In this document: positions 19,096-46,446 of the stretch, piece by piece
Layout: every line of letters begins with the position of its first letter
How positions within the stretch are numbered: position 1 is the first letter of the stretch
Program-made: the position numbers and the translations under genes
Notes under the pieces: model-generated
Seen by the model: the letters and a program-made list of their open reading frames with translations, nothing else
What the model was told of the DNA's origin: nothing
The model's database searches: none
Assembly (NCBI GenBank): GCA_012729835.1
Contig: JAAYCK010000123.1
Location: 1-52,010 of the forward strand
From: Syntrophomonadaceae bacterium
GTDB lineage: Bacteria > Bacillota > Syntrophomonadia > Syntrophomonadales > Syntrophomonadaceae
Length of the DNA stretch: 52,010 nt
Reading direction: 5' to 3'

Positions 19096-19130
19096 TTAAC
19101 CGGAGATTACTAGATTAATCGGAGGTCTCT

Positions 19131-19325
19131 ATGTTTTTCAGAAAGATTGAATATCTGGTATCATTTTTATTAATTTACATATGTTTATTATCTTTGATTC
19201 CCAAGCATTCAGTATATCAATCTCTCATAACATTAATAATCCCGTCTTTGATTGGATCGCTTGTTTTTGGTACTATGACCAATTTTATAAGGTATTTAAT
19301 TTTCAAGTCAAATGCAGAGAAATAG
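19131..19325 (+). CDS. Small two-helix membrane protein
   Basis: This is a 64-residue protein with two hydrophobic segments, YLVSFLLIYICLLSLIP and SLITLIIPSLIGSLVFGTM, separated by a short loop with KHSVYQ; the ends are basic. ATG 19131 follows ATCGGAGGTCTCT, a good ribosome site. It lies 35 bases downstream of the preceding unknown gene. It has no similarity I can name. Small two-helix proteins can be immunity proteins, holins or regulators; none of these is supported here. The region is visibly AT-rich. Confidence 0.55.
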   Translation: MFFRKIEYLVSFLLIYICLLSLIPKHSVYQSLITLIIPSLIGSLVFGTMTNFIRYLIFKSNAEK

Positions 19326-19472
19326 TATGGATTAGGAATTGCACACCCTTAATTTTCTGACATTTACGGCATAGATTTTTTTTGTAACTCTAGCGAAAAA
19401 ACGAAGGATAATTTGCCTCTGAGACATATAATTGTTTCATTGTTTTCTGAACTAATAAAGTAGGAGTGAAGT

Positions 19473-20162
19473 ATGAAAAAACTCATAATATGTTCACTAA
19501 TAACAGCATTAGTAATTGCTACGTGTTGTATAAGTGTATACGCCGTATCACCTCGGCAGCAAGCTAATATTGTTGCTAATGATACCTTTTATCAATGGAT
19601 TGATCTTTGTTCGGAAAGTTGGAAATCACTGGGGTTCGAAAGTGAAGATCAGGCAAAGCAAGCCTATTTAGGAGATACCTTATGGCAAGTGTATCAATTA
19701 AATAACAATTCCTACTCAAGTGAACAATTACTTACCAACCAACTTATTGAGAGTCCTCTCTTTATAATTCCAGTTTTGTCCGATGGAAATATTATAACGG
19801 ATCTGGAGGTCATGTTGGTTAACGGCGACTGGAAAATTGCTGGTATCGGCGGTCATATTTGCAAGCAGGCAATTGAAGTTATTACCTTAAATGGCCTTAA
19901 AGAAAGCGAATGCAAAATAGTATTTTCTCCCACACAAAAATTCTTTTTTTCTTACAAGGATGGAGAGGAAATTGGTTTGCCTTATATGAATGGCAATGAT
20001 TCTGTGAAAATGACGCAAATAAATGTGAAAAACATTAAAGAACAGCTTAAGCAAAATAACAGTATTAACGCTGATCCAAACCTAGCACCGGAACAAGTCA
20101 GATTTGGTAATGCCTCAATGTTTCACGAACAAAAACAGACCACCAGCATATTGCTAGATTAA
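19473..20162 (+). CDS. Secreted protein of unknown function
   Basis: This 229-residue protein begins KKLIICSLITALVIATCCIS, a signal peptide, with a likely cut after VYA (about residue 25). ATG 19473 follows GTAGGAGTGAAGT. The mature part has no motif I can name: a helical start (DTFYQWIDLCSESWKSLGFE), a central beta-rich part with IIPVLSDGNIITDLEVMLVN and GDWKIAGIGGH, then a polar Lys/Asn/Gln-rich tail. The central part suggests a secreted protein responding to or binding a ligand, but that is guesswork. A 147-base AT-rich gap lies upstream; codon use is more AT-rich than in the flanking housekeeping genes. Confidence 0.65.
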   Translation: MKKLIICSLITALVIATCCISVYAVSPRQQANIVANDTFYQWIDLCSESWKSLGFESEDQAKQAYLGDTLWQVYQLNNNSYSSEQLLTNQLIESPLFIIPVLSDGNIITDLEVMLVNGDWKIAGIGGHICKQAIEVITLNGLKESECKIVFSPTQKFFFSYKDGEEIGLPYMNGNDSVKMTQINVKNIKEQLKQNNSINADPNLAPEQVRFGNASMFHEQKQTTSILLD

Positions 20163-27465: not shown

Positions 27466-28779
27466 TTGATAATCACACCTGAACACTTGATAAAAAAGTA
27501 TTTTCCGCAGCCGGTGGAATCGACCCGTGAGCTTTACGATCGCTTGCAACTGGATGAGTTGGGCTATTCCTATGCGGCCTGGTTAAAGGATGCCGAGGAC
27601 TATTGCCTGAGCAAATATTTTACCGAAGAGGACTACCAGCTTATAACTGGTGACGAGAAAAACTACTCGATCAGCCCTCGGGTCTTCCGAACTCTGCTGG
27701 AAGCCAGTCCTTCTAAGATCGGCGATGAGATCCGGTCCTGCGTTTCAGAGATCGCCAAACGCATGGCCACTGACCGAACATTTGCGCGGCAGCTACAAGA
27801 TCAGATCGATCAGGAATCCGGCGTCAGCCCGGTAGTCCCCAAAATCTCAAAATCATTGAAAGCCAAGTATAATGAAAGCGGTCAGGATGCCTTTGAATAC
27901 TCCATTCAAGCCGATGGACGGCTCCACCTGGATATCATCTCCGGATTCAATTTCAAGCCAGGTCAAAAGATCCTGGATCTGTTCTTCAGTTTCCGACTGG
28001 AGGTGGAAAACAAGGTTCCCTTTCACTTGGTCGAGGTCATGCTGAACCTGAGCGACGGTGATGTGCTCTCCTATCGAAGTGTATGGTCATGCCAGGATGA
28101 AGCTCAAAAATATGGGGCTATACTTATAAACCGGCTCATCCGGGTGAACCTATTTGAAGATAATCGCAAGCTGATCGACAGCTTTGATTATATGTTTGCC
28201 CCCTCCGATATCAGCACCTTAGAGGCAGAATTGCAGCAGGTCATAGAAACACTGCCGCATCTGGATGAAAAACAGGCAGACCGCGAAGAACTGGGACAAC
28301 GAATTCTGAAGCGGCATAACCTGAACGGGCAGGCCTATGCCCTGGCCATCAAGCAGACTATCCCCAAATTGATGGAAGTTGAAAAACCTGGTGCCAACAT
28401 CGAAACTGCCTTTCTCGATGCCGTAAATAAGTATTGGGATTACTATATCCTGCAGGCAGACCCCAGTAAGGATATTAATGAAGATATGGAGCAAATGGCA
28501 CAAACTCGCATACCCCGGGTGGAACTGGCCATGGTCTCGACCAATATACTCCTGAACAGCCAGTTGTGCAGTAAATACTTCAACAGGAACTTTAGCAGCA
28601 AACAGAGACAGGCATTATTCAAAGACGCGGCTCCGCGCCTGATATATACGCTGGCAGAAGCAGAATTTGACCCAGCCGTGCCAGCTGATGAACGAATCTA
28701 CCACCTGTCGGCGTTTATTGCCGGGCAATTTGATCTGATGAAAGAGATCCTGGAGGAAACACGCCAGTGGCCTAAATAG
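27466..28779 (+). CDS. Large soluble protein of unknown function, divergent from pyr operon
   Basis: I cannot place this 437-residue protein. It starts at TTG 27466 behind GGGGG. There is no signal peptide or membrane helix. The first 130 residues are helical (ELYDRLQLDELGYSYAAWLK), the middle holds a more beta-like part around YSIQADGRLHLDIISGFNFK and LVEVMLNLSDGDVL, and the last 200 residues are helical with many charged residues. No nucleotide, metal or DNA-binding motif is visible. It has its own good promoter and stands alone. Codon use looks like that of the neighbouring core genes, which suggests a resident, not a recent arrival. Confidence 0.7.
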   Translation: MIITPEHLIKKYFPQPVESTRELYDRLQLDELGYSYAAWLKDAEDYCLSKYFTEEDYQLITGDEKNYSISPRVFRTLLEASPSKIGDEIRSCVSEIAKRMATDRTFARQLQDQIDQESGVSPVVPKISKSLKAKYNESGQDAFEYSIQADGRLHLDIISGFNFKPGQKILDLFFSFRLEVENKVPFHLVEVMLNLSDGDVLSYRSVWSCQDEAQKYGAILINRLIRVNLFEDNRKLIDSFDYMFAPSDISTLEAELQQVIETLPHLDEKQADREELGQRILKRHNLNGQAYALAIKQTIPKLMEVEKPGANIETAFLDAVNKYWDYYILQADPSKDINEDMEQMAQTRIPRVELAMVSTNILLNSQLCSKYFNRNFSSKQRQALFKDAAPRLIYTLAEAEFDPAVPADERIYHLSAFIAGQFDLMKEILEETRQWPK

Positions 28780-30864: not shown

Positions 30865-31010
30865 CTCTTGCCCCTCCTTTCACCGCTCAGCAAAATCATA
30901 TACTTCAGCTATCTTTATTGTTTAGTATTCAACTTAAAAAGGCAACCATCCTGTTAGTTCCCCCGTCGGGCCTAGTCATTTTTCCCCGCTAGTTCGTCAA
31001 GCCCTATTTG

Positions 31011-32357
31011 TTAAGATCGGCTGTCCGGCCGACTATTCCGCCCGATACAATAGTACTCAAAGCCATGCCGGCGCACGATATCAGGGCAGTATAAGCTGCG
31101 CCCGTCGAAAATGATTCGTTCGCGCATGAGCGCAGATAATTCAGAAAAATCAACGTCGGCAAAACAAGGCCATTCAGTCAGCAGCAGCAAAGCGTTCTTG
31201 CCCAGCGCAGCCTCCCGCATACTATCGACCCGTTTGAATCCCATTCTTAATGGGTCCGGCCAAGTCTGATCAGAGTTAGCAGCGGGATCAAAGGCCTCGA
31301 CGCTAGCACCCCGCTCCAGTAGTGCAGTGATAATATCCAGCGCAGGTGCTTCCCGCAAATCGTCAGTACCGGGTTTAAAGCTGAGGCCCCATACGCCCAG
31401 AGCTATCCCTTTCAAGTCATTTCCAAACCGGGCGGTGATCAAGTCGGCAAAACCCAGTCTTTGTCTCTGGTTGACCAAGTGAATCCCACTGGCAATAAAC
31501 ATAGGTAAACCATATTGTTGCCCTAGTTTGGTGATAGCCGTCACATCTTTCGGCAAGCAGGAACCACCATAACCGATCCCAGGGTTGAGATACTGCCTAC
31601 CTATCCGTTGATCCAGGGCCATGCCGCGCTGTACCTCACAGATGTCGGCGCCTACTGCATCACAGATTTCGGCCAGCTCATTCATCAAACTTATGCGGCA
31701 AGCCAGCATGACATTGCAAGCATACTTGCACATTTCGGCTGACAGCGAGTCCATTTCAAGCAGCGGTATCCCAGCAGCTATATGGGATGCATACAGCGTC
31801 TGCAGATACTCAACAGCCAGCTGACTATCCGTCCCTAAAATGATTCGGTCCGGATTGGCCATATCTCCAAGCGCCTCTCCTTCCCGCAAGAACTCCGGGT
31901 TATATACCACATCGATTTCCAGGTCCTTTCTGCCTCTCCCAATTAACTCTTCCCGGATGATGCCCTTAACTTTTTCCGTCGTTCCCGGGGGTACGGTCGA
32001 CTTGATAACCAGCACCACAGATCGATTGATCAGCCGTCCGAATTGATGAACTGCCGCCATTACCTGACTGCTATCCACCTCACCGTCTCTGCCCAGCGGA
32101 GTACCTACCGCAATAAAACATGATTCACAATCATCCAATATCAAACTCAAGTCTGTGCTGAAAGTCAGTCTGCGTGCCTGCACCTGTTCCTGCAGTACCG
32201 CTTCCAACCCGGGTTCAAATATAGGGATCCTCCCCTCCAGCAATCCTTCAATTTTTCCAGTATCCGAATCTATGCAGCAGACCTGGTTGCCGAGACTGGC
32301 CAGGTATACTACCGTCGCCAGGCCGACATAACCCGTACCCAAAACACATATACGCAC
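31011..32357 (-). CDS. UDP-glucose 6-dehydrogenase
   Basis: This NAD enzyme oxidises UDP-glucose to UDP-glucuronate. The N-terminal RICVLGTGYVGLATVVYLAS is the NAD site; the catalytic cysteine is in YGGSCLPKDVTAI, and GVWGLSFKPGTDDLREAPAL is the UDP-domain motif. GTG 32357 is chosen because GGAGAGGGG lies seven bases ahead and leads straight to the Rossmann motif; an in-frame TTG at 32378 lies upstream. Length is 448 residues. It is the last gene of the exopolysaccharide locus and works with the epimerase at 33491 to make UDP-glucuronate and UDP-galacturonate. Confidence 0.94.
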   Translation of the reverse strand: MRICVLGTGYVGLATVVYLASLGNQVCCIDSDTGKIEGLLEGRIPIFEPGLEAVLQEQVQARRLTFSTDLSLILDDCESCFIAVGTPLGRDGEVDSSQVMAAVHQFGRLINRSVVLVIKSTVPPGTTEKVKGIIREELIGRGRKDLEIDVVYNPEFLREGEALGDMANPDRIILGTDSQLAVEYLQTLYASHIAAGIPLLEMDSLSAEMCKYACNVMLACRISLMNELAEICDAVGADICEVQRGMALDQRIGRQYLNPGIGYGGSCLPKDVTAITKLGQQYGLPMFIASGIHLVNQRQRLGFADLITARFGNDLKGIALGVWGLSFKPGTDDLREAPALDIITALLERGASVEAFDPAANSDQTWPDPLRMGFKRVDSMREAALGKNALLLLTEWPCFADVDFSELSALMRERIIFDGRSLYCPDIVRRHGFEYYCIGRNSRPDSRS

Positions 32358-32387
32358 TGATTGACCCCTCTCCATCAATAAGATCTA

Positions 32388-33450
32388 TTATATTCTCTGA
32401 CCCTTGCTGGCTTTTTGAGAAAGCTTCGCCTGCACTTTATATCTCAGGTCATACCACGAATATAAATGAGTAAACAACCACCTCAACAATCCTGCCCAGC
32501 GGTACGGGATCATAGCCACCAGCACAAACCACAAAGAATAAGCTGTTTTCTTGACGGGGCTCAACTTGTCATTACCCGCAATCGCCCTGATCCCGGCGGC
32601 TGCTATGGAAAAGGCACCGGCTGCAGATCGATTGCCAAAGATATCCCCAGCTTATAGCGCATCATGTTGATCTTGATCTGTTTCCAGTCGGCAGTGGGTG
32701 GAGCCAAAATAAAACCATATTTGTCTGCAGCGGCTTTCATCATTTTATTATTGAGTTCATACCAGCCAAACTGATACAGCAAGCGATCATAATCGATGAA
32801 ACCGGACCCATGATTATCACCGTGAACACAATATTGACCCAATGTTTCCCGGATCGGAACTACCTGACCCAAAAAGGGAGCATACATGAAGAGGTAGGAA
32901 TCTGCCCCCAATTGGAACTCTTCCGGGACTGGCATCACCTCTTCCAAAAAGGTCCGGGTGAATGCGTTGCCGCTAGTTGGCGGCGAGGAGTAGCGCCGGT
33001 TGCTCAGTAGCTGGGCCAGTACGTCGCCGGGCTGGGGATGTTCGTCCGGGATCGAATATCCCATGGGTTTGCCCGACGATGATACCACCTGCAGACTGTA
33101 TTGCAGTTTGGCAATGCCGATATCACGGTTACCTCATACTGTCGGGCCACTGCCTCGAGAGCGGCGGGCAGCAGAATATCATCAGAATCCAGAAAAATGA
33201 CCAGGTCGCCCTGGCAAATCTCCCATCCGGCATTGAAGGCCGAGGCCTGGCCGCCATTATCCTTGAGTACAGCCCGTATCTGTGATCCATATGATTCGAT
33301 GATGGATAGGGAATCATCGGTGGACCCGTCATCCACCACGATCACCTCGCGATACGGATAGGTCTGGCGCAAAGCGCTGTCGATGGCTTTGACAAGATAG
33401 CGTTCATAATTATAATTGTCGATGATTATGCTGATAAACACAGTATCCAT
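32388..33450 (-). pseudogene. GT2 glycosyltransferase broken by two single-base frameshifts
   Basis: Three reading frames must be joined to restore one GT2 protein of about 354 residues. Segment 1 (33450-33133) holds the nucleotide-sugar part: DNYNYERYLVKAIDSAL, EVIVVDDGSTDDSL and LVIFLDSDDIL. Segment 2 (33130-about 32636) resumes with NRDIGIAKLQYSLQVVSSSG and covers the acceptor part to GISLA. Segment 3 (32633-32388) continues NRSAAGAFSIAAAGIRA and then a helical tail (AYSLWFVLVAMIPYRWAGLL). The joins at about 33131 and 32635 each need one extra base, and the total then divides evenly into codons. Neither site is in a long homopolymer. Two lesions in one gene favour real inactivation over sequencing error. 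Confidence 0.82.
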
Positions 33451-33490
33451 TATGCATACCCCGCTTGTTAAGGCCCCGACGGCAATTCGG

Positions 33491-34441
33491 TCAAATATCA
33501 TAATAATCTCTAAACCATTCAACAAAGGCTGTCAACCCTGTCTCTAACATAACAGCAGGCTTATAGCCCAGTTTGCTGGCTGCATGTTCGATGTCAGCGC
33601 AGGTGCGCAAGGGATCCCCCACCTGGCGAGGCAAATACTTCTTTATTGCCTGCTTGCCGATCAGATCTTCCAATCGGCCCATCAGTAACTCCAAATCAAC
33701 CGGGTGCGAGTTTCCCAGATTGAATATTTCATAATCAAAGTTCTGGTCTAGGGCACTGGTGATTCCCGCAACGATATCATCGATGTAGGTGAAGTCTCTC
33801 TCCATCTTGCCGTAATTGAAAACTTCGATTTCCCTGCCCTCCAGAATAGCCCGGGTAAACCTGGGTATAGCCATATCCGGTCTGCACCATGGACCATAAA
33901 CCGTGAAAAAGCGAAGACCAGTGGTGGGAAGGCCAAAAATCCGGCTGTAGGTATATGCCATCAATTCGTTACCACGTTTGGTTGCTGCGTACAAAGAAAC
34001 CGGCGAATCAACATCATCGGTCTCCTTGAAGCTAGCCTGGGGAAAATCGCCGTAAACAGAAGACGATGAGGCATAGACGAAGTTTACTGCCCCGGAGTTT
34101 TTCGATGCCTCAATCACATTTAAAAACCCACCCATATTTACCTTTTCATACACATGGGGCTCTCTGAAAGAATTGCGCACTCCGGGCTGCGCAGCCAGAT
34201 GACATACCTTTGTTATTTGATGATTCTGAAACAAGCTGGTTATAGCCGCCTGGTCACAAATATCCGTCTTACTGAATATGAATGACTGATAATCGTTCAA
34301 GCTGCGCAGACGGTCAGACTTGAGCTCCGGATCGTAATAATCATTCAAATTATCTACGCCCAGCACACTATCGCCACGTTCCAACAACCGCCTGGCGGTA
34401 TGATAACCGATGAATCCAGCTGCTCCCGTAACCATTATCAT
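33491..34441 (-). CDS. UDP-glucuronate 4-epimerase-like NAD epimerase
   Basis: This is an extended short-chain dehydrogenase. The NAD site is MVTGAAGFIGYHTARRLLER, the segment VDNLNDYYDPELKSDRL is typical of UDP-glucuronate 4-epimerases, and the catalytic YxxxK is in SLYAATKRGNELMAYTYS, followed by GLRFFTVYGPW. Length is 317 residues. ATG 34441 lies 12 bases after GAGAGG; a TTG at 34462 would also be in frame. With the UDP-glucose dehydrogenase it would supply UDP-galacturonate for the polysaccharide. It lies between the GT4 at 34506 and the broken GT2. Confidence 0.9.
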   Translation of the reverse strand: MIMVTGAAGFIGYHTARRLLERGDSVLGVDNLNDYYDPELKSDRLRSLNDYQSFIFSKTDICDQAAITSLFQNHQITKVCHLAAQPGVRNSFREPHVYEKVNMGGFLNVIEASKNSGAVNFVYASSSSVYGDFPQASFKETDDVDSPVSLYAATKRGNELMAYTYSRIFGLPTTGLRFFTVYGPWCRPDMAIPRFTRAILEGREIEVFNYGKMERDFTYIDDIVAGITSALDQNFDYEIFNLGNSHPVDLELLMGRLEDLIGKQAIKKYLPRQVGDPLRTCADIEHAASKLGYKPAVMLETGLTAFVEWFRDYYDI

Positions 34442-34505
34442 AGTATCTCGTCTGCCTCTCAATCGATAATAATCAATGTATATCTTATTGTCTGGAAGAA
34501 TATTA

Positions 34506-35639
34506 TCATTGCTGACTCAGTGCCGAGAGCAGCTTTTCAAAAGCAGGAATAGTGTTTTCTGGACGGAAGTGTTCCGCCCGTTCTCTCCCTAAGCGAGCAA
34601 GACGCTCGGCCAGCTCAGGATCTGTCAATACCCTGGCAATGGCTTCCGTCATTGACTCCATATCGTCCGGTGGAACCAGCAGTCCATAACGTCCATGCTC
34701 GAGGATCTCATCCGGGCCGCTGGGGCAATCGGCAGCCACCACCGGCACTCCCAGCGCCAGGGCTTGCAACAGCACTCCCGGTAAACCTTCAAAACGAGAG
34801 CTTAACACAAAAACAGCAGCCTGCTGTATTATCGCGAAGGGGTTGGCCTGAAAACCCGGCAAACTTACTGTTTCATTAACATCCAAGTCGTCGATCAGAC
34901 ACTGCAGGCAGGTACGTTCGTTTCCTTCGCCCAGTATGATCAGTTCCTGTCTGATGCCCCAAGCCAATAATTTAGCATGTGCCCTGATCAAGATATCGAA
35001 ATGCTTGGCATACTCCAGTCGGCCCGCCCCGATGATTATCGGACAGTCATGCTCTTTCCGCAGCACTGCCGGCGACAGCTGGGCCTGCTGGCGGATTTGA
35101 TCGACATCCAAAGGGTTGTACAAGACCTGCAGCCTTGGTTTTAACCGTGGATAAGCCTTGATCACGCTGTCAGCTACACCCTGGGATACTGTAAGCACCG
35201 CTGATAATGCAGGAAACAGCCAGCTGATCAAGATTTTATGCACCAGGGAAAGCCTATCAGTCCAAAACCCTATGTTACAACGAAACCAGCCTATAGTTCG
35301 GCATCCTTTGATTATACCCGCCAATGCGGCCAAAAAGATCGCATCGTATTCCATGGCCCCTATAACGATGTCATCTTTATTGACTTCCCGTTGCATGCAC
35401 CGAATAAGTTTCAGCAGATGCCACCTTACTCTCTCCCGGCCTTCCATGGCAGCGATCACCTGAACATCGGAAGGAATCTCGCCCCAGTATACTCCCTGGT
35501 TCTTTATGAGGAACAGCACCGGCTGGAATTGGCGGCGGTCTAGATTCCGCATAACATTAAGTGTCACCCGTTCTGCCCCGCCTCCCGAAATGTTGGGCAG
35601 AATAAAAATTACCCGCTGCAGCCGTACCTGCTCAGTCAT
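34506..35639 (-). CDS. GT4 glycosyltransferase, paralogue 1
   Basis: This is a GT-B fold family 4 transferase of 377 residues. The N-terminus RVIFILPNISGGGAERVTLN has the glycine-rich acceptor-domain loop, and the C-terminal donor site is in VFVLSSRFEGLPGVLLQALA with the E-x7-E pattern, followed by GVPVVAADCPSGPDEILEHG. It is clearly paralogous to the GT4 at 37646: same length, and near-identical stretches such as GGGAERV and AVLTVSQGVADS against LMLTVSQGVSQS. It starts ATG 35639, two bases after the next gene's stop. It presumably acts in exopolysaccharide assembly; donor and linkage are unknown. Confidence 0.9.
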   Translation of the reverse strand: MTEQVRLQRVIFILPNISGGGAERVTLNVMRNLDRRQFQPVLFLIKNQGVYWGEIPSDVQVIAAMEGRERVRWHLLKLIRCMQREVNKDDIVIGAMEYDAIFLAALAGIIKGCRTIGWFRCNIGFWTDRLSLVHKILISWLFPALSAVLTVSQGVADSVIKAYPRLKPRLQVLYNPLDVDQIRQQAQLSPAVLRKEHDCPIIIGAGRLEYAKHFDILIRAHAKLLAWGIRQELIILGEGNERTCLQCLIDDLDVNETVSLPGFQANPFAIIQQAAVFVLSSRFEGLPGVLLQALALGVPVVAADCPSGPDEILEHGRYGLLVPPDDMESMTEAIARVLTDPELAERLARLGRERAEHFRPENTIPAFEKLLSALSQQ

Positions 35640-35641
35640 GG

Positions 35642-36787
35642 TCAGCGCCCTCGTTCCGTGCTGTGAAAGTGTTGATATTGTTCGTGTATATACTCCTGCA
35701 TCTCCTGCTTGAATCTTTCCTGGCTGAAGCGCTGGGCGTTCGATATCATAGCCCGACTATTGAATCGGGACTCCCATTGTGTAAACTGTTCAACTGCCAA
35801 TTTTATCGCCACAGCACTTTGCTCATAAAAGAAGAGTCCGGTAGCCTGGTCCCAGTTAAAGCCGTCGGCGGCGATTACGGTCTCGGTGGCACCACCCTTG
35901 CCCAAGGCAATTACCGGCGTGCCGCAGGCTTGTGCTTCGACCGGCACCATGCCAAAGTCCTCTTCAGCCGCAAACACCAGTGCTCGGGCTTGTCCCATCA
36001 ATGCGGTCAGTTCTGGGCCATGACGATAGCCAAGTATTTCTACGTTTTTACCCGCCAACCGCTGACATTTATCATATTCCGGGCCATCTCCCACTACCTT
36101 CAGCGGCAGGCCCAACTGGTTAAAGGCTTGTATGACCAACCCAGCTTTTTTATAGGGGACCAGACGGGAAACAAAAAGAAAATAGTCTTGCTTGGTCTCT
36201 CCCGGTTGGAAAGCCGTCAAATCGATCGGCGGATAGATGACCTGCGCTTCTCGGCGGTAGGCCCGCCAGATACGCCGGGCGGTGTTCTGTGAATTAGCAA
36301 TAAAATAGTCTACCCGATTAGACGACTGGCTGTCCCACAAACGCATATAATGCAGGAACCATCGGGCAAAAGCAGCCTTCAATCCATGATCAAGTCCATT
36401 TTCTGCTAGATAACTGTGGGTAAGATCCCAGGCGTAACGCACCGGAGTATGGCAATAGCATATATGCAGTTGGTCGGCCCGGGTAAGGACTCCTTTGGCT
36501 ACACAATGGCTGAGAGAAAGCAGCACATCGTATTCGGACAGATCGAACTGCTCGATAGTATAAGGAAACAATGGCAATTTGCTACGATAATTTCTCTGTA
36601 TGTTGCGATGCTCCTGCAGACGGGAGGCGTGTACCCTATCTATAGGCAGACCCAGCCTAGCCAGTGATTCCCTATCATAGAACAGTGTATAGAGCGGAGC
36701 TTTGGGATACATCTTCGCAACCACCTCAAGCACGTTCTCAGCTCCACCCAGGTCTACTACCCAGTCATTGATCAGGCTAATTTTCAC
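35642..36787 (-). CDS. GT4 glycosyltransferase (mannosyltransferase-like)
   Basis: This is a GT4 of 381 residues. The start SLINDWVVDLGGAENVLEVV and the ADQLHICYCHTPVRYAWDLT motif are typical of a GT4 subgroup often annotated WbaZ-like mannosyltransferases. The donor region is GQARALVFAAEEDFGMVPVE then AQACGTPVIALGKGG. Start GTG 36787 overlaps the GT2 gene by 11 bases, so the genes are coupled. The donor sugar cannot be settled from sequence. Confidence 0.9.
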   Translation of the reverse strand: MKISLINDWVVDLGGAENVLEVVAKMYPKAPLYTLFYDRESLARLGLPIDRVHASRLQEHRNIQRNYRSKLPLFPYTIEQFDLSEYDVLLSLSHCVAKGVLTRADQLHICYCHTPVRYAWDLTHSYLAENGLDHGLKAAFARWFLHYMRLWDSQSSNRVDYFIANSQNTARRIWRAYRREAQVIYPPIDLTAFQPGETKQDYFLFVSRLVPYKKAGLVIQAFNQLGLPLKVVGDGPEYDKCQRLAGKNVEILGYRHGPELTALMGQARALVFAAEEDFGMVPVEAQACGTPVIALGKGGATETVIAADGFNWDQATGLFFYEQSAVAIKLAVEQFTQWESRFNSRAMISNAQRFSQERFKQEMQEYIHEQYQHFHSTERGR

Positions 36788-37649
36788 AACTACTCCCCTT
36801 TAATCTCTTACTGGTAATCCAGCCATATAGTCGTCCTCTGAAAACACTCCAATAGTACCTGGTCTTACCAATCCTGCCGGTTGCAAGTGCCAGTAAAGAT
36901 CCCCCTAAAGGCCTTAAAAGATAGTACGCTACAAACCAGACCGGATAGTTGTGCAGGTCCATCATACGCCCCATGGCACAGCCGTAGCTAAAACCACGGT
37001 TTACGGCTGCTGAATCATAATTCCTCGCCGGATCGAGGTGACCGATCTTTAAATCAGGACAATAGTATAGGCAATGCTTTTTCTCTAAAATCCGCAAGAC
37101 ATAATCAATGTCTTCAGATGCTGTCCAGCGAGTTCCGGCTCCAGGTCCGAGCAGTTCATCAAAACCTCCCGCACCTTCAATTACTCCCCTGCGCAGAAAT
37201 ATCGTATTGGTATTGGCCCGGCGCCAAACGTTAAATTTGTTTATATAACCAGGTGTGAAAGCAAAATTGCCTGGACCCAGTCCTCCTTCATCATCACACA
37301 GGCTTCCGCTGATTCCGTCCCAATCGGTTTGTTTACGAAAAATATTGATAACCTTATCCAACAATTCTTCAGTATACCAGCAATCATCATCGGGGAAAGC
37401 GACGATCTCGCCGTTCAAGCTCCTTATGCCTATATTTCTTGCGCGGGATACCCCCGGCTTATCGGTTTTTATATGCCTTATGTCCAATACAGCCTGGTAA
37501 GGCTCCAATATATCCACCAGGCGGTCATCACGATTTTGATCCACGATAATCAGCTCGATATCCGGGTATGATTGTCTGTCCAGTTGCTCCAAAAACCTAC
37601 TCAGTTCGGTGGTTCGATCGATCGTAGCCAAAATAAGAGAAATCTTCAC
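36777..37649 (-). CDS. GT2 glycosyltransferase
   Basis: This is a GT-A family 2 transferase of 290 residues. The N-terminal SLILATIDRTTELSRFLEQL leads to the nucleotide site ELIIVDQNRDDRLVDIL; the DxD metal motif is in GEIVAFPDDDCWY. The later ASEDIDYVLRILEKKHCLYY carries the ED motif seen in active GT2 enzymes. GTG 37649 overlaps the end of the GT4 at 37646 by four bases. It is the only intact GT2 in the cluster; the other, at 32388-33450, is broken. Confidence 0.9.
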   Translation of the reverse strand: MKISLILATIDRTTELSRFLEQLDRQSYPDIELIIVDQNRDDRLVDILEPYQAVLDIRHIKTDKPGVSRARNIGIRSLNGEIVAFPDDDCWYTEELLDKVINIFRKQTDWDGISGSLCDDEGGLGPGNFAFTPGYINKFNVWRRANTNTIFLRRGVIEGAGGFDELLGPGAGTRWTASEDIDYVLRILEKKHCLYYCPDLKIGHLDPARNYDSAAVNRGFSYGCAMGRMMDLHNYPVWFVAYYLLRPLGGSLLALATGRIGKTRYYWSVFRGRLYGWITSKRLKGSSCEN

Positions 37650-38779
37650 CCTGCATTCTCCCCTGAAGCACTACTCTGCCTTGCTTCCAACAATAGTCTT
37701 TCATACACCGGAATTCTGTGCGCTATTCCGAATTGTTCAGCCCTCTCACGGCCTTTGAGCATATAATGCCGTGCAAGCTTAGGATCTGTTAACAAGGCCA
37801 TTATGGCATCAACCATGGCCTCCAGGTCATTGGGTGGTATGAGCAGGCCATACTCTCCATCTCCCACCACTTCCGAACCAGACCCCAGACAATTGACTAC
37901 TATCGTCGGTACTCCCAAGGCCATGGCTTCCAAAACGACCGAACCCCATCCTTCATATTGTGAACTCAGGACCAGACAGCTGGCCTTGCACATATTAGGA
38001 TAGGGATTCAACAGGAAACCCGGCAGGCGTACACTATCCTGAACCCCAAGTTTACACGCCAGTTCCTCCAATGATGCTCGCTCAGGACCTTCGCCTATGA
38101 TAACCAGCTCTTGCCGAATACCTCTGGCCAACAGCATAGCATGTGCTCTGATCAGCAGAGAAAAATTCTTCTGAGTCACCAACCGACCAACCCCTAAAAC
38201 AACGGGGATATCCTGCTGAAAATACTCGTCAAGTGTTTCGTTTCTTTTGTTGTCGATCAAAACTAGGTCCAAGGGATTATATGCCGTTCGAATTCTGGAC
38301 TTTAACCACGGGTACTGACGCTCAAGGCTCTGGGATACCCCCTGGGATACCGTAAGCATCAGATTGACTCCTGGGTACAGCAAACGGGGCAATACATGAT
38401 CAATTAGTATCCTTTTTGGATAGTTGAACATTTCAACATGAGTCCAACCCACTACAGGACGCCTTAATAACCAACCTGCCAGACTCGCCAGGTAAATACT
38501 ATCATATTCCAGGGAACCAACAATAATATCTGCATCCCGGGCCGCATACAGCAATCTTCGCAACACCTCAAAAAGATGCCATTTTAGTTTCAATCCCTGT
38601 TGCATACCATAAAAAACCTTGGTATCCGCAGGGATTTCATCCCACAGGATACCTTCATTCTTGGTCAAAAACAGAATCGGTTGGAAATGGGTACGATCAA
38701 GGTGACGAAGCACTGAGAGCACGACCCTCTCAGCCCCACCGCCGCATACGTTGGGCAATATAAATAGGACCCTCAGCAT
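37646..38779 (-). CDS. GT4 glycosyltransferase, paralogue 2
   Basis: This is a GT4 of 377 residues, a tandem-type duplicate of the gene at 34506. It starts RVLFILPNVCGGGAERVVLS and keeps DADIIVGSLEYDSIYLASLA, aligned with DDIVIGAMEYDAIFLAALAG in its paralogue. The donor motif is VLSSQYEGWGSVVLEAMALG. ATG 38779 overlaps the upstream gene by seven bases. The duplicates are separated by a GT2 and a different GT4, so the event was not a simple adjacent copy, or the block has since been rearranged. Confidence 0.9.
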   Translation of the reverse strand: MLRVLFILPNVCGGGAERVVLSVLRHLDRTHFQPILFLTKNEGILWDEIPADTKVFYGMQQGLKLKWHLFEVLRRLLYAARDADIIVGSLEYDSIYLASLAGWLLRRPVVGWTHVEMFNYPKRILIDHVLPRLLYPGVNLMLTVSQGVSQSLERQYPWLKSRIRTAYNPLDLVLIDNKRNETLDEYFQQDIPVVLGVGRLVTQKNFSLLIRAHAMLLARGIRQELVIIGEGPERASLEELACKLGVQDSVRLPGFLLNPYPNMCKASCLVLSSQYEGWGSVVLEAMALGVPTIVVNCLGSGSEVVGDGEYGLLIPPNDLEAMVDAIMALLTDPKLARHYMLKGRERAEQFGIAHRIPVYERLLLEARQSSASGENAG

Positions 38780-39891
38780 TTCCCGGCCACCTCCCGGTAT
38801 ATATCTATGGTCTGTCGGGCAGTGTCCTCCCAGCGGAAACGAGCCGCCTGTTCCAAACCTATTAAGACCCTATGGTTTCTTAGCTTGTGATCAATCAATA
38901 CCTGGCGAATGCCTCTGGCTATATCATGCACGTCATAGGGATCGACATAAATGCCGGCTTCACCGGCTACCTCCGGCAAAGATCCAGTGTTGGAGACTAC
39001 CGCCGGGGTACCACAGGCCATAGCCTCCAGAGCAGGCAAGCCAAAGCCTTCACATAGCGACGGAAATGCCAGAGCTCGGGCTCCGTTGTACAGGGCTATG
39101 AGTTCCTCGTCATTAGCAGGACCCCACTCTGTTATCGGACCACATTCTACAGATCGCCTGGCTTGATCTAGTTCATCATGTTCTCGCAGACGATTTCCGG
39201 CCACTACCAGTTGGAGACCGGGGAAATCAGACTGCAGAAGCGACATGGCTCTGGCCAGACGCCCCAGGTTCTTATGAGGCAAGCGGTTGCCTACAAATAA
39301 CACATATTCCCCCAAGTTGTTTTGGCATTTGAAATGCTTGACCTCAGCTTGATCCAATCGATGAAATCTTTCCGATACGCCAAGATAGGTACGGCGTATC
39401 TTCTGCTCGATACTCTGAGCCGGGAACATATCAAGCAAATCATAGGCGGTTGCGTCAGATACTACAATGATCCTGGCCGCCTTTTTTACCGCGTTCTTTA
39501 AGACCTGTCGGGCTGCCCTGATTCGGAGAGGATTATATAAGTCAGGGAACTTGAAGGGTATAAGATCATGAACAGTGACTACAGTACTTGTGGGCAGACA
39601 GCGGGGCGCGTTAAAATGCGGAATATGAAATACATCACTGCAGGAAGCCAGCATTTGGGCACTACCCTCTAACTGTTCCCTCAAGCTGTATATTACAGGA
39701 TGATAGGGGGTGTGAGAAAACTGCTGAGCATTTACCTGGCTTTCATTTAAAAAACGCTGGAATTCATGTGGATTCCCCCGCAAATCAAAGTACAGGTTTT
39801 CATCCATCCGATGCATATGGGATAGAATGTTGCGGATATAGCGTCCAATACCCGACATGTAAATCATTCTGCTGTCGATCAGGACCCTCAA
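38773..39891 (-). CDS. GT4 glycosyltransferase (mannosyltransferase B-like)
   Basis: This is a GT4 of 372 residues. TTG 39891 is selected because GGAGAGG lies four bases upstream and the product then starts RVLIDSRMIYMSGIGRYIRN, the family beginning; a longer frame reaches 40023 but its first 45 residues look non-coding. TVVTVHDLIPFKFPDLYN and AYVLFVGNRLPHKNLGRLAR-like segments are typical of the WcaI/MtfB group, and the donor site is LAFPSLCEGFGLPALEAMAC. It is the first of the run of overlapping transferases, after a 258-base gap behind the sugar transferase. Confidence 0.9.
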   Translation of the reverse strand: MRVLIDSRMIYMSGIGRYIRNILSHMHRMDENLYFDLRGNPHEFQRFLNESQVNAQQFSHTPYHPVIYSLREQLEGSAQMLASCSDVFHIPHFNAPRCLPTSTVVTVHDLIPFKFPDLYNPLRIRAARQVLKNAVKKAARIIVVSDATAYDLLDMFPAQSIEQKIRRTYLGVSERFHRLDQAEVKHFKCQNNLGEYVLFVGNRLPHKNLGRLARAMSLLQSDFPGLQLVVAGNRLREHDELDQARRSVECGPITEWGPANDEELIALYNGARALAFPSLCEGFGLPALEAMACGTPAVVSNTGSLPEVAGEAGIYVDPYDVHDIARGIRQVLIDHKLRNHRVLIGLEQAARFRWEDTARQTIDIYREVAGKC

Positions 39892-40149
39892 ATTACCTCT
39901 CCTTGTGCGCTCTTTACAGAAATCCCGGCTCCCGATTGTATCCGAGCACAATGAGCGATCAATAGTGTTATAAAGAACAGAACAATTAATAATTAGATTA
40001 TATATTGGGCAGCCTGTAGACAAATTAGGGTATCAGAGCAGGTTATGCTGGTGGAATGGATCTGTAGGATGTATCTATAAAACCATAGTATCCATGTTAT
40101 GTTATTGGCCTGCAAATCCACACTGTATTTCTCCTTTACGGGTGTTAGA
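39892..40149. other. Intergenic gap in the exopolysaccharide locus
   Basis: These 258 bases carry no convincing gene. A strong AAAGGAG site at 40136-40130 (minus) precedes a GTG with only eight codons, possibly a leader or a relic. No terminator hairpin with a T run and no good promoter were identified. Confidence 0.4.
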
Positions 40150-40821
40150 TTAATAGGCTCCCTTCCGGCCCAGAACAGTCGTTAGCGTTCGCAGCAACAG
40201 TTTAAGGTCCATTGCTAAACTCCAGTGGTTGATATACCATGAATCAAGCCGTGCCCGGTCAGCAAAGGCCAGACAATTACGGCCACTAACCTGCCAAATA
40301 CCTGTTATGCCCGGTTTTACGCGACAGTAGGTTTGAAAAGCCGCACCATATATAGCGACCTCTCCGGGAAGTAAAGGACGAGGACCCACCATGCTGATGT
40401 CGCCACGCACTACGTTCCACAATTGCGGCAGTTCGTCTAAACTCCAGGTTCGAAGGAAACGGCCCCATTTGGTGACCCGAGGATCCCTCCTCAGTTTCAG
40501 CTTGATTTCCCACTCCGACCTGGCCTCGGGGTGATTCTCCAGGTACCAATCCAGGACTTCTTGTGACCCAACAACCATGGTCCTGAACTTCAAACAAACA
40601 AATCCCTTGCCATCAAGACCTACCCGAGTATGACGATAAATCACTGGTCCTGTAAAAGTAAAAAAGATAAACAACGCTATCAACAACATTAGTGGACTAA
40701 GTATCATCAGGAGTATGGAGCCAAATATCAGATCGACACTACGTTTTGTCACCCTAGCCCATCGGGATCGATGCAAGACTAGCGGCTCATTCAAAGGTTG
40801 ATCATATTCTAATCTCATCAT
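40150..40821 (-). CDS. Initiating undecaprenyl-phosphate sugar transferase
   Basis: This enzyme places the first sugar-1-phosphate on undecaprenyl phosphate. The protein has one N-terminal membrane segment, SVDLIFGSILLMILSPLML, and the family signatures VCLKFRTMVVGSQ, RVTKWGRFLRTWSLDELPQL, WNVVRGDISMVGPRPL and RVKPGITGIWQVSGRN. At 223 residues it is the short (EpsL/WcaJ C-terminal) type without the extra N-terminal membrane domain. ATG 40821 has a weak GGGG site; the adjacent ATG 40818 is also possible. It sets the start point for the polysaccharide built by the downstream transferases. Confidence 0.93.
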   Translation of the reverse strand: MMRLEYDQPLNEPLVLHRSRWARVTKRSVDLIFGSILLMILSPLMLLIALFIFFTFTGPVIYRHTRVGLDGKGFVCLKFRTMVVGSQEVLDWYLENHPEARSEWEIKLKLRRDPRVTKWGRFLRTWSLDELPQLWNVVRGDISMVGPRPLLPGEVAIYGAAFQTYCRVKPGITGIWQVSGRNCLAFADRARLDSWYINHWSLAMDLKLLLRTLTTVLGRKGAY

Positions 40822-40883
40822 GTTTTACTGCCCCATACATCATCCATACTTCATGCCGCAAAGTTGCTTCGGCCTCGGATGGC

Positions 40884-42092
40884 CTATTTCTTTTCATATA
40901 CCGCAAATAATTGCAGGGCCACCTGATCGAAGGGATGAGCGCGAAGCTCGTCAGCCAATTCGCGGGCAGGTGAACGGTCTGCAATATCAAGAAACTCGTC
41001 CCAGTTCATAAAATCAAAAGGAGTAATCTCCACTTCCTTCAATCCATGTTTCTCAAACAAACGATTGAGCGACTCCGGATCAAAATGATGCATATGGAGC
41101 ATCGCCGGGAAGAGAGTACCCTCGATGTTTTCCCAGATACGCTGTTCCACCTCGCCATAACGGGTGGGCGCTGTAATGAATACCCGACCGCCCGGTTTGA
41201 GTACCCGGGCAAACTCGCCGATAATGCCGTCAGGGTCATAGGTATGTTCCAACACATCGAGGCAATTGACCGATTCAAATGAATTATCGGGATATGGTAG
41301 GTTGGCAATAGTACCTTCAGTAAAGTTAACCTGTTGTGAACCCTTGATCAGCAGGTCCTCTGCTGCAGGAAATTCACATTGTACTGCCATGGTACCCAGC
41401 TCTTCTTCGATCAATTTGATGACCCGGGGAAAAATCTTCTTTTCCCCCTTCTTCATCATGGCTGAGAGGGCTGTGGCCCTTTCCAGGCGAGCCTTACAGG
41501 CGTCTATGGCATGCACGTCCATATACTGGCTCATCACCAGCGAAGCAAAACCCGCCCCGCAGCCGGCGTCTAATATTTTCCCCTCCAACTGCTGGATGTG
41601 GGGATGAACGTATTTCAGGAAGGAATACTCACCGCCGGAAGAAAAGTTCTGCAAAGCAATGATCTCGTTCAGGGTAAACAGGTCCTGCTGGCTAAGCGAT
41701 GACCCGATCTCTACCCGGAACCAGTTACGCAGATCACGATCTGCAGCCAAACGCTCGGTTATAGCCTGGATATCTGAGCTGCCCGCAGCTTCTGCCAGCT
41801 TCTTGCGTTCAGCATCCGTGATCACGTTCCAGATGTACTCCACAAAAAAAGGAAAACAGACATTATTAGCTACATTAAAAAGAATGGCCTGTTCCGGCTT
41901 GTCCCGCTTCAAACGAGCAGTGGCATTATGGAATTCCAGGAGGAAAGCGATGGCGTTCTCATCATTACGCGAAAAAACCTCTTCATAGGCGGCAGCCAGC
42001 TCGTCGGCTTCCGGGAGCAGTTCGCGATAAAGTTGCAAAACGTCCTCATCGACCACATTAAAATAGTAATTGAAAAAATCCTTTAAAATCAC
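40884..42092 (-). CDS. Class I SAM-dependent methyltransferase with N-terminal helical domain
   Basis: This is a 402-residue protein. The first 145 residues are helical with no known motif. The methyltransferase core has motif I GKILDAGCGAGFASLVMSQY, motif II around FTEGTIANLPYPDNSFESVN, and LEHTYDPDGIIGEFARVLKP then GGRVFITAPTRYGE. GTG 42092 follows GGGGG. It lies 13 bases downstream of the GH57 gene and 62 bases ahead of the sugar transferase gene, so it may be shared by, or bridge, the alpha-glucan and exopolysaccharide sets. The acceptor could be a sugar, but a protein or small molecule is equally possible. Confidence 0.85.
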   Translation of the reverse strand: MILKDFFNYYFNVVDEDVLQLYRELLPEADELAAAYEEVFSRNDENAIAFLLEFHNATARLKRDKPEQAILFNVANNVCFPFFVEYIWNVITDAERKKLAEAAGSSDIQAITERLAADRDLRNWFRVEIGSSLSQQDLFTLNEIIALQNFSSGGEYSFLKYVHPHIQQLEGKILDAGCGAGFASLVMSQYMDVHAIDACKARLERATALSAMMKKGEKKIFPRVIKLIEEELGTMAVQCEFPAAEDLLIKGSQQVNFTEGTIANLPYPDNSFESVNCLDVLEHTYDPDGIIGEFARVLKPGGRVFITAPTRYGEVEQRIWENIEGTLFPAMLHMHHFDPESLNRLFEKHGLKEVEITPFDFMNWDEFLDIADRSPARELADELRAHPFDQVALQLFAVYEKK

Positions 42093-42105
42093 TTTACTAC
42101 CCCCA

Positions 42106-44589
42106 TTATTTAATCAAGTCAATAATTCGTTCGTAATCAGTTTTCTGCGCAGAAGTATCGAAATCCCAGGTTATGCAGGCATCAAAGGAACCCTGGCCTT
42201 GTTCAAGCACTATCACCGGGCAGATCATGACCCCGGAGGTGTGATACCCCAATCTGCTCTGATCAGGAAAAACGTAACCCTGGTAATAATGCTTCACCGC
42301 TGGCTCGACCTTCAACCACGGCATACGATTGGGTGAAGCAAATTCCATTTTCACGCGGTTGTTGAAGGTGTTGTCATCTCCGCAGCGGAGCTCATAAATA
42401 TAATCGATACTGGCTGGCCTTGGCCCCAGACGCTTGTCATTAAATACTTCCAGCCCCTTGGTTCCGTTGACCATAAGCTGTTCAAATGTAAACTGGGTAT
42501 CCTGGCCTGCTTCTGCCGGTATCATTCCCATCCAGGCCTTAGGCTTGAATTCCACCTCATCGGAGGGTGCCGCCGATAACACCAACTGCGGCACCAGCGC
42601 CAATCCGGATATCTCACCCTGGCATACTGCCTGGAAAGTGACCAGGAGCTTGTTCTCCTCCATTTTTACGTATTTATTGATTACCACATTGACTGGCCCA
42701 TGAGTTCCTTCGATAATCCCCTGGCCTTTCATGCTGACCACCCCGCCGGGATCGCCATTGACCGGCTCAATGTCATAGGTCATGGTTGCGAAGCCTCCCA
42801 CCGGCTGCAAGTCGCCATCATTTAACAATACCATCTCGCAGCGCAGCGAATTCCGGCAAACCTCCCGACGACCTCCCTCGGGGTAATACTGGCGGACCAG
42901 ACTGGAGTCAGTCTCTGTAAAGACCAGTGGCACCAGATGACGATGTATGCTATGGTAAGCACTGACTTTGCTAATATCTTTGGTTAATAATTCCCGGCCC
43001 AGATCAATATCTCCTGCCAACTGGGGAGATAGTACATGATGGTAAATCATGCAACCACCTTCCCGGTGTACCACCAGGTTTTGACTGGCGCTCTCCAGGA
43101 CTATCTCATCGCCGCCGTCGCAGTCCCAATCGACTACAGATAAGGTTTTACGACCGGCAAGGCCGATTATATTATTAAGTTCTTCCATCAGCCGCAGGGC
43201 TACCTCCACGTAGGCCAAGCCCTGGGCATCATAATAAGGTGAGGAACCATAGCTGGGATGTCGGCTGGCCCACTTGGGGTCTTCCTGATAAGCCACATGC
43301 CTTACCCGATTGATAATATGATAAGCAGCGGCGAGGTCTTCGCCCAGTTGTTCCTCGATCAGCGCACTTACTAGCTCAGAACGGCGCGAAGACTGCATGA
43401 GAGCTTCCCGCAGTTCGCCGCTGAATGCCGACCGGTTCTGACGCCGGTCCTGCCAGAGAGTGATAACGCCATCTTCAAATGCTTCCTGCAGCGTTTCCAA
43501 ATCCCTGATGCGGGACATGACTCGCCGCAGGCGTTCATCCCCAAAGCTCACACCGCGGATACCCCGGCGCGCCGTCCAGTTTTCCCATTCGGGATAACTA
43601 TGACTCGAACTGATCGGATAGGTATCGAGAATACCCTGCCCGGTCAAATAATCTTTCAGACCAGTAAACTTGAGGTCAGGATCGCGTTCTACCAGGTTGA
43701 AGAATTCCATCAGCCACTGAGCATCTCCGGCGGGATCCTTGCTCCATTGTCCAAATTTCTCGGCATCCTCAAAGATGAGCAGGATGGGTTCTATTTCCCG
43801 ACCATATTCTTTCGCCAATCTGGCGGCCTTCTCCAGCGTGTCTTTTATATAGAAATAGTAGTGACCCGGTTTGATACGGGTATTGTCACTGCTGGTAAAG
43901 CTCTGCCGTTTCAAGAGTTGGTACCGGAATTGACTGTGGACAGGCAGAACAAAAAACTCCTGCCCGGCGATCTCATCACGTAAGGCATAATAGAGCATTT
44001 CCGGTGGTATATGACTTACAGTCGTTATAGACACTGGATCGACAAAACCGAAATGGCGCAGACAATAATCATTATCTGAACCCGGATAGGAAAAGTGCGC
44101 TGGAAAGAAGGTCTCCTGATCCAGATAGAATATCGGAGAAGCCTGCATGGTCCGGGCCCCCCAGGTCAATTCACGCAAGAGTACCTCACCACATTCTCTC
44201 TCCACCACATGGATGCCCTGCCATTCCGCCGCCGAAATGCCGATGGTCTCCTGAATCAGCCGGTCATACTCGCGCATTTGGAACAAATAATCATCGGGGC
44301 GTGAGGATAATTGGATAAACGGTTCATCGGCCAGTCCGCCGATGATACCCATCTTGCCGGTTGAATACAGTTGCTTAAGCGCCTCCACATATTCAGGCTT
44401 CTCCTGTCGCATCCAGTAGAGGAAAGGCCCGGAGAAATGAGTATTGATATAAAATGAATCCAGATTCACCGCATCCTGCAGCAACCGCAGCCATGGTTCG
44501 TAAGAATTGGCATAAGCCTCCTCCCTGGTACGGTACAACTGAAAATGAGGCTGATGAAAATGAGGGCAAAAGGCGATATGCCCTTTCAT
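42106..44589 (-). CDS. GH57 glycoside hydrolase / glucanotransferase-like protein with C-terminal beta domains
   Basis: This is an 827-residue family 57 enzyme. Motif 1 is in IAFCPHFHQPHF, the nucleophile region in GIHVVERECGEVLLRE, and the acid/base aspartate in LLIFEDAEKFGQW. The later half has beta-rich domains similar in layout to the DUF1925/1926 parts of GH57 4-alpha-glucanotransferases, including an FG-GAP-like VVDWDCDGGDEIVL. It has no signal peptide, so action is cytoplasmic. Start ATG 44589 lies after TGGAGG. Placed between the branching-enzyme-like GH57 and the methyltransferase, it probably trims or transfers alpha-1,4-glucan. Confidence 0.85.
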   Translation of the reverse strand: MKGHIAFCPHFHQPHFQLYRTREEAYANSYEPWLRLLQDAVNLDSFYINTHFSGPFLYWMRQEKPEYVEALKQLYSTGKMGIIGGLADEPFIQLSSRPDDYLFQMREYDRLIQETIGISAAEWQGIHVVERECGEVLLRELTWGARTMQASPIFYLDQETFFPAHFSYPGSDNDYCLRHFGFVDPVSITTVSHIPPEMLYYALRDEIAGQEFFVLPVHSQFRYQLLKRQSFTSSDNTRIKPGHYYFYIKDTLEKAARLAKEYGREIEPILLIFEDAEKFGQWSKDPAGDAQWLMEFFNLVERDPDLKFTGLKDYLTGQGILDTYPISSSHSYPEWENWTARRGIRGVSFGDERLRRVMSRIRDLETLQEAFEDGVITLWQDRRQNRSAFSGELREALMQSSRRSELVSALIEEQLGEDLAAAYHIINRVRHVAYQEDPKWASRHPSYGSSPYYDAQGLAYVEVALRLMEELNNIIGLAGRKTLSVVDWDCDGGDEIVLESASQNLVVHREGGCMIYHHVLSPQLAGDIDLGRELLTKDISKVSAYHSIHRHLVPLVFTETDSSLVRQYYPEGGRREVCRNSLRCEMVLLNDGDLQPVGGFATMTYDIEPVNGDPGGVVSMKGQGIIEGTHGPVNVVINKYVKMEENKLLVTFQAVCQGEISGLALVPQLVLSAAPSDEVEFKPKAWMGMIPAEAGQDTQFTFEQLMVNGTKGLEVFNDKRLGPRPASIDYIYELRCGDDNTFNNRVKMEFASPNRMPWLKVEPAVKHYYQGYVFPDQSRLGYHTSGVMICPVIVLEQGQGSFDACITWDFDTSAQKTDYERIIDLIK

Positions 44590-44626
44590 AAGCTACCTCC
44601 AATACATACAGATATTGAAAATTTAT

Positions 44627-44700
44627 GTAGGGGCGGATTCCATATCCACCCATGATTGCGGCCCGATTGTCATAAAGGCGGATATAGAATCCGACCCTAC
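44627..44700. repeat. Family A repeat pair forming a long hairpin
   Basis: GTAGGGGCGGATTCCATATC plus CACC (44627-44650) and its near-complement at 44677-44700 (21 of 24 matches) flank a 26-base loop. Each arm resembles the single copies at 20688 and 51807. The element lies in the 156-base gap between the two GH57 genes, so it is transcribed within the operon. Confidence 0.8.
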
Positions 44701-44745
44701 GCGTTCACATAAAATCCTTTCCGACAAAACCGTATCGCTTGGTAG

Positions 44746-46329
44746 TTAAGTACCCCCGCTACCGGAATGGTCGCGCAGATTCAGAAAATCATCTTCATAT
44801 TCCACCCGGCCCAGCCAAGACTCAAAATCCTCATCAAGCTGTCCGATGGTCAGTGAATCACTCAGGCGCAGCAGCTTAGTATAGTGATCGAAAAACCGCT
44901 TCATAGCATAATCACGGGTGAGATTATTGCTGACCATGAACAGCCAATCACTGCTCTGTATCAGCATCAATTCCTTCAAGGCCTGGGTCACCGTGCGCCG
45001 GGATATCTCGGAATTATAAGACAGGAATTTGAGGGTCTCATATTCCTGGCCCACCTTCTTGATAATCTCCCACATCCAGCCGGTTTCAGCGTTGTTCCAC
45101 ATATAATGTTTGCCGCCCATGCCCCAGGAAGACTCGAACACCTGGGCTTCATGCTGGGCCGGGCCAACGCTATTGGCTGTGATCATCTCCAATTGGGCGC
45201 TATGGTGCAACTCACGAATAACCTCTTCCAGCCAGTCGACTCCTTCCCACCACCAATGCCCAAACAATTCGGTATCATAGCATCCCACGATTAGCGGTGC
45301 GGCAAAGCCCAGTTTGACTGCCTCCCGGCTGTTCTCCTCCAGGCTGCGTACGAAATGATGTGCATGCTGTCCGGCCCTTACCATAGCCTTTTCCGGACTA
45401 TATACCAGCTTGCGGTCCATGGGGTTGTTGCGATCGGTCACCTTCCAATACTTAAACCCGGAACGCATCTCGTGCTTATGAAATTCCCGGTAATCAGGGT
45501 CGCCCGGATAACCAAAATCAGCCGACCAGACCTGATTGGATATCATAGCATTGCGTCCGTAGACCGTGATATCCTTGTCCTCGATCCGGTAGGGACGATA
45601 GGTGGAAAGCCCGGTGGAAGCAAAGGTCTCCACCTCCAGTCCAACACTCTCTTCCCCGCTGAAGACTTCTATGGGCTTGCCTCCCTCAATCGCATGACTA
45701 TCAACATAGAAATACCGGAACCCGTTGTCAATAAGGATATCTTCTATTCCTTTAAAATAACCACATTCGGGCAGCCAGAAGCCTTCCGGGCTGCGCCCGA
45801 AGTAGTGTTCATATACTCTTTTCCCCCAGTGCACCTGATACTGCAGACTGGTATAGTCCAGGAGCGGCAAATAGGCGTGAGTGGCAGCAGAGGTCAGGAC
45901 CTCGATTACACCCTCCTCCTGCAACTGGCGCAGACAGCCCACGATATCCATATCCATCTCTATCAGATAGTCGCGGCGGATATCACGATAAAAACGGTGA
46001 TAAAAGGCGGCGATCCTCGCCTGCTCTATCTCTCCGCGGGATATGAAATAGCGCTCATCATCAGCTGCCAGGGTCTCCCGTTCATGCAGGTAATTGATAA
46101 ATTCCTGCTGGATATAGCGAGAAGCTAATTGTTCCAACAGAGTAGGACTAAAACTGAAGGTAAGGGCTACATTTATGCCCTCTTCCCGCAGCTTTTTCAG
46201 TGAACGCAAGAGGGGTATGTAGGTCTCGGCCATGGCCTCAAAGAGCCAAACCTCGCCAAAAGGCCAGCGTCCCTGACGTTTAACATAGGGAATATGGCTA
46301 TGCAAAACCAGCATAAGCTTAGAACTCAA
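44746..46329 (-). CDS. GH57 1,4-alpha-glucan branching enzyme-like protein
   Basis: This is a 527-residue GH57 protein of the branching-enzyme (DUF1957) group. The five GH57 motifs are seen: LVLHSHIPYV, FWLPECGYFKGIEDIL with the nucleophile glutamate, VGCYDTELFGHWWWEGVDWL with the acid aspartate, and the branching-enzyme-specific SSWGMGGKHYMWNNAETGWM near residue 400. No signal peptide is present. Start TTG 46329 follows AAGGGGAAG. The GT4 at 46447 is upstream on the same strand, so together they can extend and branch an alpha-glucan. Confidence 0.9.
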   Translation of the reverse strand: MSSKLMLVLHSHIPYVKRQGRWPFGEVWLFEAMAETYIPLLRSLKKLREEGINVALTFSFSPTLLEQLASRYIQQEFINYLHERETLAADDERYFISRGEIEQARIAAFYHRFYRDIRRDYLIEMDMDIVGCLRQLQEEGVIEVLTSAATHAYLPLLDYTSLQYQVHWGKRVYEHYFGRSPEGFWLPECGYFKGIEDILIDNGFRYFYVDSHAIEGGKPIEVFSGEESVGLEVETFASTGLSTYRPYRIEDKDITVYGRNAMISNQVWSADFGYPGDPDYREFHKHEMRSGFKYWKVTDRNNPMDRKLVYSPEKAMVRAGQHAHHFVRSLEENSREAVKLGFAAPLIVGCYDTELFGHWWWEGVDWLEEVIRELHHSAQLEMITANSVGPAQHEAQVFESSWGMGGKHYMWNNAETGWMWEIIKKVGQEYETLKFLSYNSEISRRTVTQALKELMLIQSSDWLFMVSNNLTRDYAMKRFFDHYTKLLRLSDSLTIGQLDEDFESWLGRVEYEDDFLNLRDHSGSGGT

Positions 46330-46446
46330 AAATTTACACTTCCCCTTAAATGATGTGGGACAACTTATGACCGGTCTCGCCAGATAAGCTGGCGTGAGCG
46401 GAGCCCTCTTCCGTTCTAGCCCCGCTCAATCATAAATTGAACAATC

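Follow-up and report, generated by a model that had tools for sequence, protein, structure and literature searches.

Among the loci directing the synthesis of capsules or O-antigens, at least some of those described contain broken genes, e.g., the pneumococcal cps locus, where a frameshifted gene lies within a polysaccharide cluster, as is the case here. For pneumococcal cps, genotype is tied to structure by typed strains and polymer chemistry, whereas the present locus is described from its sequence. The gene concerned encodes a family-2 glycosyltransferase (GT2) and is carried on the minus strand of a stretch of 52010 bases, hereafter the window, which makes up the whole of contig C123 in a draft genome of 3.13 Mb and 186 contigs. 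Comparable proteins of 354 residues are found in rhizobia, namely in Sinorhizobium sp. CCBAU 05631 (L006), S. meliloti pSymB (L009) and R. lusitanum (L008), with 52-54% identity to the first piece of the window gene and 44-46% to the second; these two pieces are matched in order and the motifs are common, but the rhizobial GT2s are each encoded by one open reading frame (ORF) and the window gene is spread over three frames. Within the same phylum, genome G431 (L003/L183) encodes a single-ORF homologue of 303 aa, 56% identical over the first piece, in a cluster sharing homologues of the sugar transferase, epimerase-like and glycosyltransferase genes, together with a partial dehydrogenase homologue where the stretch ends; this homologue is nonetheless shorter, in one frame and set in another gene order than in the window. 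Around the GT2 homologues of the 80 loci described below, none of the window's other cluster genes was matched at E 1e-10 within at most 4 kb on each side, several of these loci having short flanks.

The broken gene spans 1063 bases (32388-33450, minus strand) and consists of three successive open frames corresponding to consecutive parts of one GT2. The first frame starts with an ATG at 33450 and is usable to about 33131, the second runs without interruption from 33130 until the stop at 32603-32605, and the third stays open down to a TAA at 32388-32390. Respective to the encoded protein, piece 1 (33133-33450) supplies the N-terminal portion of the GT-A domain and bears the DDGS and LDSDD (DXD-type) motifs, piece 2 (32606-33130) is the remaining catalytic half with GAD and HGxNH motifs that are common to most aligned homologues, and piece 3 (32388-32604) is the C-terminal tail. 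Break 1 lies at 33131-33132 and break 2 most likely within 32605-32617, so that the final residues of piece 2 may fall beyond it. Since each piece is devoid of any further stop in its own frame and keeps its conserved motifs, the lesions look recent.

Piece 1 matches PF00535 (E 5.9e-29) with 101.6 bits for a gathering cut-off of 23.3, three single-ORF homologues scoring 87-109 bits, and its VVDDGSTD and FLDSDD segments align with the homologues at what we take to be the GT-A nucleotide-binding and DXD-type motifs. No complete GT2 catalytic domain is present in a single reading frame, the frame being broken at about 33131; taken by themselves, neither piece 2 nor piece 3 matched any Pfam or NCBIfam family at E 1. 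Against a homologue profile of 355 columns, built from 23 sequences kept of 83 at <85% identity, piece 1 aligns to columns 6-115 (E 5.4e-47), piece 2 to columns 115-222 (E 1.9e-31) and piece 3, weakly, to columns 289-330 (E 0.012, 6.5 bits), these E-values applying to a small set of segments, i.e., the stop-to-stop segments of at least 20 residues in 32001-34000 on both strands. The three pieces are colinear and are the top three scorers in that set. The score of piece 3 was reached by 1 of 2000 shuffles (1569 gave any reported alignment) and by none of 367 overlapping eighty-residue tiles (205 gave any reported alignment) drawn from 28 other minus-strand genes of the window, the GT2 at 36780 being excluded; its membership of the gene thus appears weakly but significantly supported.

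In a tblastn search, piece 2 found matches in 168 plasmid records, mostly from Rhizobium (84) and Sinorhizobium (74), with identity up to 46% among the 20 plasmid matches listed. Pieces 1 and 2 fall in order on one ORF in each of the 11 relatives that were looked at first, and piece 3 weakly matches seven of these ORFs in the expected order (E 0.005-0.09, composition correction off). Of the 151 stretches matched in a subsequent alignment scan of genome contigs, confirmation was obtained for 97, and 80 of these were retained; since the scan patterns were built from two rhizobial rows and the window sequence, this set gives a biased picture of the host range. Homology to single-ORF genes elsewhere, by which a pseudogene is judged, was found for pieces 1 and 2 in 80/80 loci, one ORF covering both in every case. 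The lengths of these ORFs range from 318 to 792 residues, with exactly 354 in 34 of the 80, and many of the longer ones may owe their length to an early start codon. At E 1, a single ORF takes in all three pieces in 6/80 loci, with the correct order in each of the six. The colinear profile matches and the 80 single-ORF loci bear out the first-pass annotation, which had joined the three frames into a single GT2 of about 354 residues, and support one GT2 gene broken at two places, break 2 being less firm than break 1.

Regarding the positions of the breaks, frameshift-aware local alignment to the profile places join 1 at 33131-33132, in agreement with the first proposal of 33131, and ends at 32798, short of join 2; codon statistics give 33123-33125. 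Join 2 had been set near 32635 but moves downstream on the minus strand, the best step placement being 32605-32617 with 32635 scoring about 6.8 units lower, and codon statistics giving 32610-32622; owing to the low conservation of the C-terminal part, every step score is negative, and this interval is therefore a preference and no proof. The third segment retains its place as an extension of the gene through its open frame and weak colinear homology, but the residues NRSAAGA ascribed to it may be out of frame, since join 2 is better placed at 32605-32617. As for the two one-base deletions initially proposed, both joins are indeed shifts of the same sign, but the event causing either shift is unreadable from one sequence, and the divisibility of their sum by three is automatic. 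A three-phase codon model gains 146 units in the broken gene, whereas none of 47 other ORFs gains more than 9.1; stops are penalised in this model, however, and the 47 ORFs had been selected as free of them. Once stops are treated as neutral, the gain falls to 69.4, as against 16.3 or less in the other ORFs. Under these stop-neutral statistics, the last preferred phase differs from the one piece 3 needs, so that the case for piece 3 is made by its open frame and its weak homology.

The setting in a polysaccharide locus, as first annotated, is backed by the neighbouring genes, all open as ORFs and all on the minus strand. Downstream lies a nucleotide-sugar (UDP-glucose type) dehydrogenase (31011-32378), with three UDPG_MGDP_dh Pfam domains and a TIGR03026 match above cut-off (E 4e-120), and upstream an NAD-dependent sugar epimerase/dehydratase (33491-34462; PF01370, E 7.7e-55), which reached no cut-off among the 25 of 32 NCBIfam families listed. 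Further upstream are found, from Pfam matches, five open glycosyltransferase genes, four GT4-type and one GT2-type (34506-40023), an initiating bacterial sugar transferase, Bac_transf (40150-40821; PF02397, E 1.4e-61), then a methyltransferase, two GH57-type genes and a further GT4 (40884-47628). No flippase or polymerase appeared among the Pfam-scanned cluster genes (31011-47628), and export of the polymer may be encoded elsewhere or by unrecognised genes. Within the broken gene, a TTGACA-16-TATAAT promoter-like match (12/12) lies antisense at 33389-33416 on the plus strand, probably as a by-product of the conserved NYNYERYL codons.

Elsewhere, the plus strand of the window carries an agr-type quorum-sensing set (14780-17867) comprising a SpoOB/GHKL histidine kinase (14780), AgrB (16144), a LytTR response regulator (16742) and a 46-residue ORF (17727-17867) with the C-terminal end ACLWHWYQPEIPE, presumably resembling an AgrD autoinducer precursor. 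A low-GC stretch follows on the same strand (17891-20162), its small ORFs comprising a DUF4879 protein at 17891 and two ORFs, at 18622 and 19473, that have no Pfam or NCBIfam matches. A 437-residue ORF (27466-28779, plus strand), on the strand opposite to the flanking conserved genes, has no Pfam match at E 0.001.

Concerning distribution, the cross-genome searches used piece 2, piece 1 being left out as a general GT2 domain. Piece 2 had no match in 53 other genomes of the family, none in 62 other genomes of the order (single-sequence search), and, of 397 further genomes sampled from the phylum, it was matched in 1. Single-protein scans of genome contigs and of viral contigs returned no relative; when 2 genomes were searched at genus level with DNA, the window itself was the sole match, and no second match was found within its own genome. 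With an alignment as the query, the same 62 order genomes yielded one weak match, in G026 (E 1.5e-4), and this genome also has a GT2, 38% identical to piece 1, that immediately follows an epimerase-like gene, so that the absence among relatives is incomplete. No GT2 separates the epimerase homologue from the dehydrogenase homologue in the three relatives examined on this point (L039-L041), the gap being 13-32 bases. Homologues of the GT4 at 35642 and of the GT2 at 36777 recur in relatives, and adjoin in four of five stretches fetched for that GT2 (L034, L035, L036 and L038; not L037), so that part of the cluster is common to relatives and the broken GT2 is not. Given the near-absence of piece 2 from the family, order and sampled phylum genomes, the broken gene looks like a laterally acquired, dispensable accessory transferase.

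The main rival to recent gene breakage is sequencing error, i.e., a gene intact in the organism with breaks introduced by sequencing or assembly into a draft of 186 contigs; the pieces are otherwise undamaged, and break 2 comprises a four-base run (32609-32612), a common spot for indel errors. Break 1, on the other hand, is away from any homopolymer, no run of at least four bases being present there, and two errors would be needed within one gene of 1.06 kb. Open ORFs elsewhere in the window constitute no independent control. From 816 kb of the genus's other genome (2.6 Mb), 708 ORFs were compared with 282 kb of the present genome, a portion that comprises the window. Matches were obtained for 144 ORFs, with 62 best matches at ≥45% identity, about 60 kb, 3 of the 62 being inside the window. 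None of these 62 orthologous pairs was split over two frames, as against two breaks in the 1.06 kb of the GT2, a control in which a second stretch is recognised only at E ≤1e-10 and ≥35% identity, short tails being missed; coverage was <70% in five pairs, one of them at a contig end. The result of 0/62 is loose, as it is compatible with an indel rate at which chance would hit a few genes twice over the 3.1 Mb, and the comparison is not blind to choice, the GT2 having been selected for being broken. Because no pair was split, real decay is nonetheless favoured: the evidence leans towards real breaks, and we regard error as unlikely, if still to be taken seriously.

Another reading, compatible with the others, retains a single real break, the gene ending at the stop at 32603-32605 with the third frame not included. 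The similarity of piece 3 is weak (6.5 bits; best single-homologue E 0.005), the phylum relative L003 has 303 residues, the third frame is not chosen by the stop-neutral codon statistics, and all three pieces share one ORF in just six of the 80 loci; piece 3 nevertheless shows colinearity with the C-terminal end of the homologues of 354 residues, is in correct order wherever matched in those loci, and has a score that was hardly ever reached by shuffles and never by tiles, which leaves a single break improbable. Polysaccharide genes are frequently phase-variable, and slippage in a repeat tract could toggle the gene, but no tandem repeats occur in 31000-34500 and the longest homopolymer in the gene is at most five bases; the sole tract at the lesions being the four-base run at break 2, repeat-driven phase variation was rejected as very improbable. 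Programmed -1 ribosomal frameshifting, by which a gene functional as it is would have its frames joined, is in keeping with the same sign of both shifts but was dismissed as scarcely credible, since neither join has an XXXYYYZ slippery heptamer, the four in the gene being elsewhere, with the nearest 61 bases downstream of join 1, where its use would misread about 20 residues, and the one nearest join 2 >200 bases upstream, while homologues have pieces 1 and 2 in one frame and two such events per gene would be extraordinary.

The explanation we retain, and consider probable, is that of an accessory GT2 gene that was recently inactivated and is now a pseudogene; the cluster holding it would direct a surface polysaccharide or exopolysaccharide, and the host would be a spore-forming Firmicute, an assignment drawn from the sporulation-type genes SpoIIP and dipicolinate synthase A. 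In its unbroken form, the gene would, like its rhizobial homologues, encode about 354 residues. At present, translation from the ATG at 33450 would depart from the homologous frame at about 33131 and end at 33004, giving a product of about 148 residues without the second half of the catalytic domain, which should for that reason be inactive. We infer that the breaks are real, that activity was lost and that the polymer changed; loss of the GT2 may alter the polysaccharide repeat unit, as first suggested, and other glycosyltransferases could stand in. A more specific scenario, in which broken and unbroken alleles are mixed and an environmental spore-former is now varying its surface polysaccharide through real and recent disruption of a laterally acquired transferase, appears rather doubtful.

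For annotation purposes, the region is to be described as one disrupted GT2 gene and not as two or three small ORFs. If the breaks are real, this gene, for which no close match was found in the organism's relatives, would provide a further instance of a polysaccharide cluster in which an accessory transferase decays, such gene decay being of the ordinary kind.
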